DNA of 64,000 nucleotides from Parvibaculum sp. (GTDB taxonomy: Bacteria > Pseudomonadota > Alphaproteobacteria > Parvibaculales > Parvibaculaceae), in NCBI GenBank assembly GCA_030645235.1, contig JAUSMV010000030.1:558001-622000 (forward strand), written 5' to 3'. Positions 4,105-13,217 of the stretch are shown here, piece after piece (positions within the stretch are counted from its first letter, which is position 1; each line of letters opens with the position of its first letter). Under the pieces are notes generated by a model. That model worked only from the letters and a program-made list of their open reading frames with translations. It was not told where the DNA came from and made no database searches. Made by a program: the position numbers and the translations under genes.

Positions 4105-5160
4105 ATGTATCTGAAAGATATTTGGTACTTCGCAATACCGGGCGAGAGCCTGAAGGCGGGGGCCCTCATCCACAAAGTGATGCTCGGCGAACCATTGGTC
4201 ATCGGACGTACGGCTGAGGGCGAAGCCTTCGCGTTGCGCGATATTTGTCCGCATCGCGGCGTACCCCTGTCAGCGGGTCAATTGCTCGACACGACCAGGA
4301 GTGCCTGTGGCACGTCCGTCATTGAGTGCCCCTATCATGGCTGGCAATTCCGCACTGACGGGCATTGCGCACATATCCCCTCGCTCGTGCCGGGACAAGA
4401 CGTCGAAGTCGCGCGTATCAAGGTGCGCTCGTATCCTTTGCGCGAAGTTCAGGGAAACATCTGGCTTTATTTTGCCGACGAAAAACGTATCGACCTTGCG
4501 CCGACACATGAGCCGCCGGTGATGCCGGGCTTCGATGATCGCCCCGCAAATATTCGCGAAAGCATGATGTTCTCCTGCCACGTCGATCATGCCGTTATCG
4601 GCCTGATGGATCCGGCACATGGCCCCTTTGTGCATCGCGCGTGGTGGTGGCGCTCGCAAGCCTCGATCCATGAAAAGGCTAAAGCGTTTGCCCCGACCGA
4701 ATTTGGCTTTGCGATGGTGGAACATCAACCCTCAAGCAATTCGCTCGCTTACAAAATTTTGGGGGGCAAGCCCACAACTGAAATTACCTTCCGCCTTCCC
4801 GGCATCCGCATTGAGCGCATCACAGCGGGACGGCATCGCCTCGTCGGACTTACCAGCGTTACACCTATTGATGAAAAGACCACGGAAATCACACAGTCCT
4901 TTTATTGGACAATCCCGTTTCTGTCGGCGTTTAAACCCATTGCGCGCCATTTCCTCAAGCGTTTCCTCGGACAAGACCGCGACATGGTCAATCTGCAACA
5001 GCGTGGCCTGAAGTTTGATCCGCGCCTCATGCTTATCAACGATGCAGATGTGCAGGCAAAGTGGTACCAGCGGTTGAAGTCGGAATGGTCCACGTCACTG
5101 GATCAGGGACGGCCGTTTGAAAACCCCGTCAAGCCCGCCACATTACGTTGGCGTAGCTAA
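4105..5160 (+). CDS. Rieske non-heme iron oxygenase, VanA-like
   Basis: A 351-residue oxygenase alpha subunit of the ring-hydroxylating/O-demethylase type. The Rieske [2Fe-2S] ligands are in CPHRG (Cys48, His50) and CPYHGWQF (Cys75, His78). The mononuclear iron site lies in the region HVDHAVIGLMDPAHGPFVH at about 159-177, followed by a VanA-like C-terminal domain. It should use a ferredoxin reductase partner that is not encoded nearby. The substrate cannot be read from the sequence; aromatic acids or lipids are both known in this family. It stands alone between the MucR and XRE genes. Confidence 0.9.
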   Translation: MYLKDIWYFAIPGESLKAGALIHKVMLGEPLVIGRTAEGEAFALRDICPHRGVPLSAGQLLDTTRSACGTSVIECPYHGWQFRTDGHCAHIPSLVPGQDVEVARIKVRSYPLREVQGNIWLYFADEKRIDLAPTHEPPVMPGFDDRPANIRESMMFSCHVDHAVIGLMDPAHGPFVHRAWWWRSQASIHEKAKAFAPTEFGFAMVEHQPSSNSLAYKILGGKPTTEITFRLPGIRIERITAGRHRLVGLTSVTPIDEKTTEITQSFYWTIPFLSAFKPIARHFLKRFLGQDRDMVNLQQRGLKFDPRLMLINDADVQAKWYQRLKSEWSTSLDQGRPFENPVKPATLRWRS

Positions 5161-9651: not shown

Positions 9652-10716
9652 TTAATTCCAGATCGTAAACCGGCCATGGAAATCGGCTTTGCCGAGGTCG
9701 CGGGTCTCACCCGTCGGCCAAATCGTCAAACGAACATTCGCATACGGATTGGTGCCGTCGGGTTCGACGCGGAGCCAGGCGACGGGGGCGTCCGTGGTCG
9801 CCGCTTCACCAGCTTTATGCATCGCCGCTTTGATGCGGGCCTGCACGGCATCGGGGAGATATTGCCAGACGATGGAATGGACGAGTGTGCGGGTGACACC
9901 CTTCTCCGCCGGTTGTGAAAACATATTCTCGACCCAATCGGCAGCATCGGCCTTTTCAACGCGAAGGCCGGAGCGGGCGGTGCTGATGAGCGCGGCGTTC
10001 AGACGCGCGATGCGGGCCGACTGGTCGGGCCAGACATAGGACAGGAGCCGCGTGCGATGTTCGTCTGATGACGGATCGAGGGGGTTCTGATCGCAGCCGC
10101 GCCGATGACGCACGGTGAGCGGCGCGTCGAGCGGCGGCGGGTTGCCCTGCCAATCCTGAATGATGCGGACACCTTCGGCGTCTGATCCCCATTCGGCAAT
10201 GCCGAGATCATAATGATAGCGGTCGAAGCTGAGATTGAGACCGGCACTGGAACCAATTTCATACAAATCGAGCGGCAGGCCGGTCATAGCAGCAAGATGC
10301 AACGCACCGCCAAGGATGCTGCCGGAGCGCGAGACTTCGTTGGTCTGGGGCGGACTATCGAGATAGGTCTCCAGGAAAACATCATGTGCCGCAATGGCTT
10401 TTTCGATTGCGGACCAGAGCGCTTCGTCGCTGACGTCATGCGGCGGATAGGCTTCCGTGAGCACAGCACAATCACCGCGACGGGCGAGCGCGTTCAAAGC
10501 GCCGGTGGCACGGAGTGCGAGAGCGTCGCCCAAAAGATTGCCCTGCCAGTTCAGAATACGAGCGGCGAAAGTGCCGCCTGATGCGTCCAGATGGTCTGCA
10601 AGCACATTACAAACGCGGGCGGTGAAGGGCGAGCCCAGAGCGTTGCAGGCAGTGCCCTGGGCTTTAAACCGTTCACGCACATCTGCTTCTGCATTCGCTT
10701 TGACTGCCGTGTTCAT
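9652..10716 (-). CDS. DUF2332 family protein
   Basis: A 354-residue protein matching DUF2332 along its length, with RFKAQGTACNALGSPFTARV at the N-terminus, the core GALHLAAMTGLPLDLYEIGS continuing SAGLNLSFDRYHYDLG, and a later TLVHSIVWQYLPDAVQARI. The pattern resembles an S-adenosylmethionine-dependent fold, but the function is not established. Its ATG at 10716 directly follows the TAG of the upstream citrate synthase gene (TAGATG), so the two are translationally coupled and probably cotranscribed. Confidence 0.85.
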   Translation of the reverse strand: MNTAVKANAEADVRERFKAQGTACNALGSPFTARVCNVLADHLDASGGTFAARILNWQGNLLGDALALRATGALNALARRGDCAVLTEAYPPHDVSDEALWSAIEKAIAAHDVFLETYLDSPPQTNEVSRSGSILGGALHLAAMTGLPLDLYEIGSSAGLNLSFDRYHYDLGIAEWGSDAEGVRIIQDWQGNPPPLDAPLTVRHRRGCDQNPLDPSSDEHRTRLLSYVWPDQSARIARLNAALISTARSGLRVEKADAADWVENMFSQPAEKGVTRTLVHSIVWQYLPDAVQARIKAAMHKAGEAATTDAPVAWLRVEPDGTNPYANVRLTIWPTGETRDLGKADFHGRFTIWN

Positions 10717-11835
10717 CTACGCCGCCTGATTGTCCGGCCAATGGCCGATATAGGTTGACGCCGGACGGATGAGGCGCCCCACTCTCTCCTGTTCGATCAC
10801 ATGGGCCGACCAGCCGACGATGCGCGACAGAGCAAAGACCGCTGTCACAGCGCTGCGGGGGATGCCCAAGGCTTCGAGCAGGATGGCTGTGTAATATTCC
10901 ATGTTCGTGTCGAGGCGCTGATCGGGCTTCATTTCTTTGAGCGTTGAAAGCGCCACGGCTTCAACGTCGCGCGCGAACTTCACGCGTTCGTTGCCGTTGG
11001 TCAGCAGCATCACCGCCTTGTTGAACACATCGGCCCGGGGGTCGCGCACCTTATAGACGCGGTGGCCGAAGCCCATCAGGCGTTCGCCTTTTGAGATTTC
11101 GTCAACGAGCCACGGCTTGATGTGGTCGCGCGTGCCGATGGCATCGAGCATGTCGAGAACGGGACCGGGCGCGCCGCCATGAAGCGGGCCTTTCAGCGCA
11201 CAGAGCGCACCGACCGTGGCGGAGATCAGACCGGCACGCGTCGAGGCAATCACGCGGGCTGTGAAGGTGGAGGCGTTCATGCCGTGGTCTGTGACCGTGA
11301 CGAGATAGGCGTTGAGCGCCTCGACCTCGGCCGCAGAAGCGGGGGCACCGCGCAGCATGCGCAGGAAGTCTTCGGCGTGACCGGCATAGGCAACGGGGGC
11401 GACGGCGGGCAGACCCTCATCGCGACGGCACAGGGCAGCCACAAAGACGGGGACAGAACCGACCGCACGGATATGGGCGGGAAGGTCTTTATCCTCATCC
11501 GGCAGCAGAGACAGGCCCGCACGGAGACCTTCCGTCACCGTCAGCCCCCTTGCGGCAGCCAGAAGGACGGGAACAAGGCGGAAGGCGGCGACGCGGGCGG
11601 CGCCGAGCTGTGCGCGCACTTCGGAGGCCGAGGGCGCGGGGTCGAGACCGGCTGTGGACCAGAGCAGCGCCGCCGTCGCCTCAAAATCATGTGTGGCAAC
11701 AAGAGCTTCGAGGTCATAACCGGCGATGATGAGACGGCCTGCCTCGCCATCGACATGGCTCAGGGCTGTTTCGGCGGCGACGACTTTGTCGAGACCGTTG
11801 GAACTGGCGCGGGCGAGAATGGAACTATCCGACAT
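10717..11835 (-). CDS. Citrate synthase family protein (short type)
   Basis: A 372-residue citrate/2-methylcitrate synthase-like enzyme, condensing acetyl-CoA or propionyl-CoA with oxaloacetate. Histidines in LHGGAPG (His219) and GFGHRVYKVRDPRAD (His258) match the oxaloacetate and acetyl-CoA sites. In the C-terminal motif the residue usually read as Asp (NVDFYS in typical enzymes) appears as Glu in TNMEYYTAILLEALGIP, which would alter the general base. It diverges from a second, HTH-fused citrate synthase gene and is coupled to the DUF2332 gene. Confidence 0.88.
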   Translation of the reverse strand: MSDSSILARASSNGLDKVVAAETALSHVDGEAGRLIIAGYDLEALVATHDFEATAALLWSTAGLDPAPSASEVRAQLGAARVAAFRLVPVLLAAARGLTVTEGLRAGLSLLPDEDKDLPAHIRAVGSVPVFVAALCRRDEGLPAVAPVAYAGHAEDFLRMLRGAPASAAEVEALNAYLVTVTDHGMNASTFTARVIASTRAGLISATVGALCALKGPLHGGAPGPVLDMLDAIGTRDHIKPWLVDEISKGERLMGFGHRVYKVRDPRADVFNKAVMLLTNGNERVKFARDVEAVALSTLKEMKPDQRLDTNMEYYTAILLEALGIPRSAVTAVFALSRIVGWSAHVIEQERVGRLIRPASTYIGHWPDNQAA

Positions 11836-11924
11836 GATGACACCTCAGTTTTGGCAGGCGGTGGACGAAAACAAGCTGTCCGCCTTGAGGGGTAATCTGG
11901 TTCGCGCTTGCAATATCGTCAATC

Positions 11925-11941
11925 TTGATTAAGCTAATCAA
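11925..11941. promoter_or_regulatory. Perfect 17-bp palindrome between the two citrate synthase genes
   Basis: TTGATTA-AGC-TAATCAA is a perfect 7-3-7 inverted repeat in the 116-base divergent promoter. It ends 10 bases before the start of the HTH-fused citrate synthase, and a TATAAAAT sequence sits directly against that start codon (11944-11951). This is the obvious candidate operator for the fusion protein's own DNA-binding domain, but binding is inference. Confidence 0.5.
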
Positions 11942-11951
11942 TGTATAAAAT

Positions 11952-13217
11952 ATGAGCAAGCCCATGCAGCAGAAACCGGACACGCGCAAAACCGCGCCCG
12001 AAAATCTCTATCTCTCGGCCAAGGAAGCCGCCGCCGAACTGGGGGTGAGCCTCGCCACGCTCTACGCCTATGTGAGCCGCGACATGATCCGGTCGGAACC
12101 CGTCGCCGACAGCCGCGCCAAGCGCTATCGGGCCGAAGACGTCCGTGGGCTGAAAGACCGGCGCATGGCGCAGACGGCGACACCGGCAAGCGCAGGCGAT
12201 GCGCGGGCCGCGATGAGCTTTGGCGGCTTGCCGGTACTCGACAGCGCCATCACGCTGATTGCCGACGGGCACCTCCATTATCGCGGGGTGGACGCGACGA
12301 CACTGGCGCGGAACTCAAGTCTGGAACAGGTCGCCGCCCTTCTCTGGGGCTGCCGCGATGTGCAGCCCTTTACACGTGACGCTGTGCCCGCCATGACGCC
12401 GCTGCTGACGCGGATGAGCGCCGATGTCGCAGACCTGCCGCCGATCACGCGCTGCTTGTCGCTGCTGCCGGTCGCCGAGATGGATGATCCTTCCGTTTAC
12501 AACCGCACAGAGCGGGGGCTCGCCACGACGGGCGCAAGATTGATGCGGCTGGTGACTGGCGTGATTGCGGGCGTTGAACCCTCCGCCGAACCTGTGCATG
12601 AGGTGCTGGCCCGCGCGCTCACGATGGGCGACCGGCGGGCGGCGGAACTGATCCGTGCAGCCCTTGTTCTGTGTGCGGACCATGAGTTGAATGCGTCGGC
12701 TTTTACCGCGCGCTGCGTGGCGGGCACAGGCGCAACGCTTTACGCATCCGTGCAGGCAGGCATTTGCGCGGCGGAAGGACCGCGCCATGGCGGTTTCACC
12801 AGTCGCGTTGAGACGTTTCTGACGGACATGGCACATCGCCAAGACCTTGAGGATGCTGTGCTCCTGCGTTTGCGCAACGGCGATCCGGTGCCGGGCTTTG
12901 GCCATCCGCTTTACCCTGACGGCGATCCGCGCGCTGAGACTTTGTTTACCCTGATGCAGGAAACCTATGGCGATGATCCCGCTTTTCAGCGATCACAACG
13001 TGTCATTGAAGTGATGGCGGAAGCAGGCGGCGTGAAACCGTCAATTGATTTTGCCATTGGCGCGATGGGGGCGACGCTGCGCATGTTGCCCGGCGCGGGG
13101 CTGGCGGTTTTTGTCGTCGGGCGCACGGCGGGATGGATCGGTCATGCGATTGAGCAGCACCGGTCCGGGCAGATGATAAGGCCGCGGGCGCGGTATATCG
13201 GCGATAGTCCGAGGTGA
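11952..13217 (+). CDS. Citrate synthase with N-terminal MerR-like HTH domain
   Basis: A 421-residue fusion. Residues about 18-75 form a helix-turn-helix of MerR/excisionase type (YLSAKEAAAELGVSLATLYA, then SRDMIRSEPVADSRAKRYRAEDV), and residues 85-421 are a citrate synthase: His in RHGGF and GFGHPLYPDGDPRAE, and the general-base Asp retained in SIDFAIGAMG. Such fusions are known in Alphaproteobacteria but largely uncharacterised. No good ribosome binding site precedes ATG 11952, and TATAAAAT abuts it; a leaderless or near-leaderless transcript, or a start at the Met codon 11961, is possible. A TIP30-like gene follows 21 bases later. Confidence 0.9.
   Translation: MSKPMQQKPDTRKTAPENLYLSAKEAAAELGVSLATLYAYVSRDMIRSEPVADSRAKRYRAEDVRGLKDRRMAQTATPASAGDARAAMSFGGLPVLDSAITLIADGHLHYRGVDATTLARNSSLEQVAALLWGCRDVQPFTRDAVPAMTPLLTRMSADVADLPPITRCLSLLPVAEMDDPSVYNRTERGLATTGARLMRLVTGVIAGVEPSAEPVHEVLARALTMGDRRAAELIRAALVLCADHELNASAFTARCVAGTGATLYASVQAGICAAEGPRHGGFTSRVETFLTDMAHRQDLEDAVLLRLRNGDPVPGFGHPLYPDGDPRAETLFTLMQETYGDDPAFQRSQRVIEVMAEAGGVKPSIDFAIGAMGATLRMLPGAGLAVFVVGRTAGWIGHAIEQHRSGQMIRPRARYIGDSPR

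Follow-up and report, generated by a model that had tools for sequence, protein, structure and literature searches.

What is the role of a citrate synthase that carries a DNA-binding-type domain and whose gene faces that of a second citrate synthase? This question is raised by a locus in a 64,000-nucleotide stretch of Parvibaculum sp. DNA, referred to here as the window. Two open reading frames diverge at this site, one on the forward strand (11952-13217, 421 amino acids) and one on the reverse strand (10717-11835, 372 amino acids). Both match the Pfam model Citrate_synt, which agrees with the divergent pair of citrate synthase (CS) genes reported in a preliminary description of this DNA. The forward gene encodes the fusion of a helix-turn-helix (HTH) to CS and is the proposed regulator, and the reverse gene is its proposed target. 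The comparisons given below suggest that the fusion is very probably a gene switch built from an enzyme.

The CS domain of the fusion (amino acids 91-412; 12222-13187, forward strand) is full length. It covers positions 3-357 of the 357 in profile PF00285 with 209 bits against a curated cut-off of 27, and the Pfam E-value is 1e-61. The HTH_17 model matches amino acids 20-64 (12009-12143, forward strand) at E 2.9e-4 and 21.5 bits, which is under the curated cut-off of 27 in the window protein, and it is above cut-off in all three of the relatives' fusion proteins that were scanned. Similarly, MerR_1 scores 14.5 bits in the window protein (cut-off 21.6) and is above cut-off in two of these three relatives. 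The joining of an HTH to a complete CS, as described previously, is therefore upheld, with this qualification on the HTH score. An AF2 model of the full fusion has a mean pLDDT of 88, with block values of 90-95 over amino acids 21-70 and a poorly predicted linker at amino acids 76-93, and the HTH modelled alone has a mean pLDDT of 92. Pfam and AF2 thus both place a DNA-binding-type domain and an enzyme domain in a single chain. A structure prediction without a recognition helix had been named as an observation that would refute the proposed regulatory role, and the AF2 model has this helix at amino acids 34-42. The sequence LYAYVSR at amino acids 37-43 is near-invariant, and L37, Y38, S42 and R43 are kept in 141 of 141 aligned rows when two weak homologues (L188 and L189) are excluded. 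Foldseek searches with the HTH model return weak matches to SoxR, RacA, Xis and BldC (best E 0.007) and none at E 0.001 or better, and so point weakly to a MerR/Xis-like winged HTH. The CS part of the fusion groups with methylcitrate and citrate synthases in the same kind of search.

The partner gene encodes a CS of the CitA/PRK12350 type, as indicated by its matches to Citrate_synt (E 2.5e-94, Pfam) and PRK12350 (385 bits, cut-off 332, NCBIfam). Its best solved relatives are M. tuberculosis CitA and the B. subtilis structure 2c6x, labelled 'citrate synthase 1', which we take to be CitA. There is a third CS gene elsewhere in the window genome. The partner CS is followed immediately by a DUF2332 gene (9652-10716, reverse strand), which possibly shares its transcript. 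This arrangement is also found in some relatives (such as L231), and in two loci that represent a distant family (L030 and L183) DUF2332 itself diverges directly from the fusion.

The preliminary description had stated that fusions of this kind exist in related bacteria, and they prove to form a distinct family that is present in several phyla. Among 289 genomes of the class, 31 match the fusion with an E-value of 2.5e-50 or better, including one (G148) in which the fusion is split and the HTH part lies at the end of another contig. The partner CS, at an identity of at least 51%, is present in 22 of these 289 genomes, all of which also carry the fusion, and five further genomes have a relative of the partner at 39-45% identity and lack the fusion. 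A scan of species genomes uncovered at least 593 stretches that encode fusion relatives, of which the best 80 were retained for analysis. Among the matches listed are members of the Alpha-, Beta- and Gammaproteobacteria, Chloroflexota, Deinococcota, Actinobacteria, Gemmatimonadetes, Acidobacteriota, a deltaproteobacterial bin and Eremiobacteraeota, although some of these placements may be wrong because several are metagenome bins. Most of the fusion matches listed from a plasmid collection carry the annotation 'citrate synthase family protein'. In a quick tree, built with no mixture model from sequences with the HTH trimmed off, 88 fusion rows chosen from 139 loci fall on one side of a branch with support 100, and 43 partner rows fall on one side of another with support 98. 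The fusion stem branch is long (1.35 changes per column), and the sister group of the fusions is unsure because long branches meet at this stem.

The fusion also appears to have an intact active site. H244, H279, H318, R327, D366, R391 and R410 are all present in the window protein, and each is kept in 139-141 of 141 rows, consistent with the previous statement that catalytic residues are retained. The underlying alignment has 143 rows, from which L188 and L189 were set aside, and five of its rows duplicate others. The roles of these positions (catalytic His, His and Asp, and oxaloacetate-binding His and Arg) are presumed from their equivalence to the pig enzyme. Because this pocket is conserved, it is plausible that the fusion senses its own substrate. 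One possibility is that it goes further, as a bifunctional trigger enzyme that acts as a regulator while retaining (methyl)citrate synthase activity, with switching like that of PutA. The catalytic positions are conserved beyond what substrate binding might need, and the fusion retains the canonical catalytic Asp, whereas the partner carries Glu (Glu313) there in 98 of the 98 rows with a letter at this position, as does 2c6x. However, the long stem branch of the family argues against this variant of our preferred explanation, as does the behaviour of a likely family member. Caulobacter crescentus has two CS paralogues, CitB and CitC (CCNA_03757 and CCNA_03758), alongside its main CS, and a citB citC double deletion has been made (PMC7083601). 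Their identities to B. subtilis CitA are 37% and 32%, respectively (PMC7083601), which fit CitB as the partner type and CitC as the fusion type, and CitC is probably a member of the fusion family. CitB, not CitC, complements an E. coli gltA mutant (PMC7083601). The Caulobacter pair thus resembles the window pair in that only CitB works as a CS in E. coli, as would be expected if CitC is an HTH fusion. The account of CitC in the excerpted text of PMC7083601 makes no mention of an HTH or of gene control. Overall, we give the bifunctional proposal distinctly less than an even chance, and prefer a regulator whose CS pocket serves at least as a likely sensor.

If the fusion binds DNA, a conserved site should accompany its gene, and the palindrome TTGATTA-AGC-TAATCAA reported between the two genes provides a candidate. 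It is present exactly as described at 11925-11941 of the forward strand, 10 bases upstream of the fusion ATG, and it is the sole match in the window at up to two mismatches (0.11 expected from shuffles). The 7-3-7 palindrome was rejected as the conserved unit. Relatives instead conserve TTGATT-N5-AATCAA plus an RTCAAT box, and alignment of the loci from outside the window's own family gives a longer, asymmetric operator-like element, RTCAAT-n-TTGATT-n5-AATCAATnT (11918-11944, forward strand), of which the palindrome forms the core. The exact core occurs once in the 3.83 Mb genome, and there are nine other places with one mismatch, none of which comes closer than 3 mismatches in 19 to the longer element.

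Conservation of the core was assessed upstream of the fusion with the letters of the window, as TTGATT-n4..6-AATCAA with spacers of 4-6 and up to 2 mismatches in 12. There are 139 loci in this comparison, 38 from the window's own family and 101 from outside it, of which five repeat the same genomes and were recounted without; the loci share descent and hence their counts are not independent. The core is found at all 38 own-family loci (33 of 33 distinct) and at 94 of the 101 outside loci, where Markov shuffles predict 2.1 and 3.6, respectively. At one mismatch or fewer, the numbers are 37 and 84. Control regions yield 0 of 139 in the 240 bases downstream and 7 of 139 in a stretch inside the gene. 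The check proposed in the preliminary description, namely whether the palindrome is conserved with the fusion gene in relatives, did not refute the proposal, as its core is conserved. The TCAA of the element is invariant in 72 of 72 aligned sites, and also in 116 distinct sites. The longer element, at up to 3 mismatches in 19, is present at 37 of the 38 own-family and 92 of the 101 outside loci and in none of the shuffles, counts that serve as description and not as an independent test because the positions counted were read from the outside loci. Nine outside loci exceed this limit in the tested region. In two of them (L080 and L101) the element lies before ilvA, which itself precedes the fusion; in L030 it is just outside the tested region; L017, L018, L069 and L134 have variant elements with 4 mismatches; and L188 and L189 are without the element there. 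These last two encode weak fusion homologues of approximately 30% identity in which the HTH is retained and 3 and 4 of the seven catalytic positions, respectively, are lost. They are possible pseudo-enzyme regulators with a different site.

Searches of whole genomes with a fixed-spacer pattern reveal the same association. At one mismatch or fewer the element is found in 20 of 31 genomes with the fusion versus 5 of 258 without (Fisher p 1e-18), which leaves 11 of the 31 unmatched. At up to two mismatches there are matches in 24 of the 31, all at the fusion gene, and in 7 there are none; in G148 the element precedes the N-terminal part of the fusion at the contig end. A two-mismatch match is also present in 67 of the 258 genomes without a fusion, many of which are small genomes with AT-rich matches. 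Among own-family genomes, 34 of 37 have the element, and the others are G309 and G319, with no full fusion match, and G242, with a variant site. Five CS genes that are 39-45% identical to the partner come from genomes that lack the fusion (L174-L178), and none of them has a site at fewer than 2 mismatches in 12 within 1500 bases of either end. Four plasmid-borne fusions carry the site as well, in A. fabrum C58 and Deinococcus with 1 mismatch, in Ensifer with 2 and in Comamonas with 4. The annotated start of the A. fabrum pAt gene ATU_RS25370 (4887-6164 of L195) is upstream of the element at position 4948, and its start codon has probably been annotated too far upstream because the element lies inside the annotated gene. 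The conserved site supports sequence-specific binding by the fusion.

The genes opposite the fusion are not constant. We compared the 139 loci with 12 query proteins and recorded the nearest divergent match within 400 bp. A CitA-type CS is the partner at 99 loci (94 without repeats), a class III CoA-transferase at 17 and prpB at 9, with prpC present at 9 of 9 and acnD at 5 of 9 of the latter. The prp identities are based on NCBIfam equivalog models that score above cut-off in the members scanned (six for prpB, three for prpC and three for acnD). Rarer partners are DUF2332 (2), leuB followed by CS (1) and a main-type CS (1). The remaining loci have ilvA before the fusion with CS beyond (2), a cupin followed by DUF2332 (1, L182), no match to any query (5) or a weak homologue of the fusion (2). 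The element and the fusion thus stay while the divergent partner changes. On a plasmid of Deinococcus sp. QL22, the divergent partner (3620-4663 of L196) is annotated as a pyruvate carboxyltransferase and has no NCBIfam match at 1e-30. Some mechanically called ORFs were antisense or wrong-frame calls, for instance L132 4314-5438 and L085 4566-7199, both of which match no family.

Sites away from the known fusion loci provide a further view of this association. In a genome of the same genus (G306), a CoA-transferase III gene 26 kb from the fusion is immediately preceded by a second site, with 1 mismatch, and the product of this gene is 47% identical to the divergent partner in Paraburkholderia. 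In this locus (L229 2560-5263), the CoA-transferase gene adjoins an acyl-CoA dehydrogenase gene, and together they possibly represent a glutarate-type pathway. Named loci gave access to 15 genomes with a total of 18 sites, comprising 14 known fusion sites and four extra sites, and none is found in Calidithermus. One extra site, in the Burkholderia genome of L122, is exact and located directly before a gene whose product is 39% identical to the cupin of L182, with no fusion in the 3 kb locus. Two others precede second fusion genes in Telmatospirillum (L246) and Pandoraea (L248), and the fourth (L249, 1 mismatch) has no related neighbour. The second Pandoraea fusion (1627-2991 of L248) diverges from a long ORF that by eye resembles an MFS transporter. 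The window genome has no CoA-transferase like the G306 target at E 1e-40, an empty result that, without a known match, shows little. Two unlinked sites therefore precede likely targets, which are relatives of genes that diverge from the fusion elsewhere.

Given these observations, we consider it very likely that the fusion acts as a sequence-specific transcription factor with a CS effector domain that controls both itself and its partner, with the pocket as the likely sensor. In the preliminary description, the palindrome had been proposed as the means by which the fusion controls both genes. Comparison strongly supports this proposal, as the site accompanies the fusion in different families and phyla and is also found before likely targets elsewhere. 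Such regulation may be interpreted as the 'metabolic switch' suggested at that time. It is conceivable that a different regulator of citrate metabolism uses the element, with the HTH of the fusion vestigial or otherwise employed, as the low HTH_17 score of the window protein might hint. However, the residues of the recognition helix are near-invariant, and a third-party regulator would have to co-occur with the fusion throughout the phyla and partner types over which the site tracks it. This makes the involvement of another regulator highly improbable.

The location of the element relative to predicted promoters offers some indication of how the fusion might act on its two genes. A predicted promoter for the partner has its -35 box, TTGACG, at 11917-11922 of the reverse strand, where it overlaps the element, and its -10 box, CAGATT, at 11894-11899 of the same strand, which is 17 bp from the -35. 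When read toward the partner, the RTCAA of the element is TTGAY, and part of its conservation may stem from a -35 box and not from contacts with protein. In 43 of 70 loci, a set that omits the own family and Bradyrhizobium, a box carrying A as its second letter and T as its sixth follows at a spacer of 17, and the next best is 14 at a spacer of 16. The spacer-17 box is seen in groups linked to CS, to prp and to CoA-transferase genes. No clear -35 is apparent for the promoter of the fusion itself, where TATAAA at 11944-11949 is a candidate -10. In 112 loci, the fusion's first in-frame ATG is a median of 9 nucleotides past the core, and some ATGs are within the element. Promoters controlled by MerR have a 19-20 bp spacer with the operator inside, and thus MerR-type activation through a long spacer is unsupported by the 17 bp predicted for the partner.

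The element overlaps the predicted -35 of the partner from upstream and abuts the start region of the fusion, and its centre is about 44-46 bp before the partner start predicted from the -10. Perhaps the fusion is a pure repressor of both genes, wherein the partner promoter is on by default, is blocked when the fusion covers the -35 and is released by a ligand. A good -35, an optimal 17-bp spacer and an element that overlaps the -35 and abuts the fusion start codon are in keeping with this variant, but the -10 is poor and most of the element is upstream of the -35, which is where class II activators sit. We regard pure repression as a serious contender that falls somewhat short of an even prospect. 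Because of the position of its centre, class II-like activation of the partner is about as likely as repression within our preferred explanation of an autoregulated switch.

This explanation draws on what can be read from sequence (the domains, conserved pocket and element, promoter geometry, partner swapping and unlinked sites), and from these features we infer DNA binding, an oligomer, a sign of control and a ligand. The CS domains would hold the protein together as an oligomer whose winged HTHs bind the element at 11918-11944. Because the element adjoins the fusion start codon and includes the -35 predicted for the partner, binding should silence the fusion gene itself and determine the output of the partner promoter, from which the CS and probably DUF2332 would be expressed. 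In the simplest reading, the fusion would be an autoregulated local factor acting on its divergent gene and, in some cases, on one further gene. The metabolite reported by the CS pocket most likely belongs to the reaction that converts oxaloacetate and an acyl-CoA to (2-methyl)citrate. Since the partners include methylcitrate-cycle, CS, threonine deaminase and CoA-transferase genes, a signal near oxaloacetate, acyl-CoA or (methyl)citrate is favoured. The window genome has no prpB above cut-off (best 259.6 bits, cut-off 354.4) and one MmgE/PrpD-family gene, and its context leaves the ligand undecided because the methylcitrate cycle is not found there. A bolder and rather unlikely version is that these are cross-phylum transcription factors in which a working CS site does the sensing. 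Turnover of oxaloacetate and acetyl- or propionyl-CoA, or the catalytic state, would then report flux into citrate or 2-methylcitrate, rather than concentration, to the promoters of CS, methylcitrate-cycle, CoA-transferase and related genes.

If the preferred explanation is true, an enzyme of central metabolism joins the list of enzymes turned transcription factors, and its operator can be read from genomes. There would also be a likely function for a family whose present annotation goes no further than 'citrate synthase family protein', a possible explanation for the failure of a Caulobacter CS paralogue to act as a citrate synthase, and a proposed regulator of methylcitrate genes in the Lysobacteraceae sampled. 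In addition, two poorly understood groups, DUF2332 and a group of CoA-transferase III genes, would be tied to citrate-type metabolism, which gives the uncharacterised DUF2332 a functional link. Searches of open-access papers, a scope outside which most subscription papers and all bioRxiv preprints fall, turned up no account of these proteins as regulators.

There are several known systems with which the fusion can be compared. PutA, BirA and NadR are trigger enzymes with a fused DNA-binding domain, and PutA switches between DNA and catalysis. Like these proteins, the fusion joins an enzyme fold to a DNA-binding domain and adjoins genes of its own pathway, but its enzyme part is a citrate synthase. 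In B. subtilis, the minor CS gene citA diverges from citR, which encodes a LysR-type regulator. A CS of the same type diverges from its proposed regulator in the window, although here the regulator is itself a citrate synthase. Finally, weak Foldseek matches liken the winged HTH of the fusion to MerR-, Xis- and BldC-type proteins, from which the fusion differs in having CS as its effector domain and, compared with MerR, in the shorter spacer predicted for its partner promoter.
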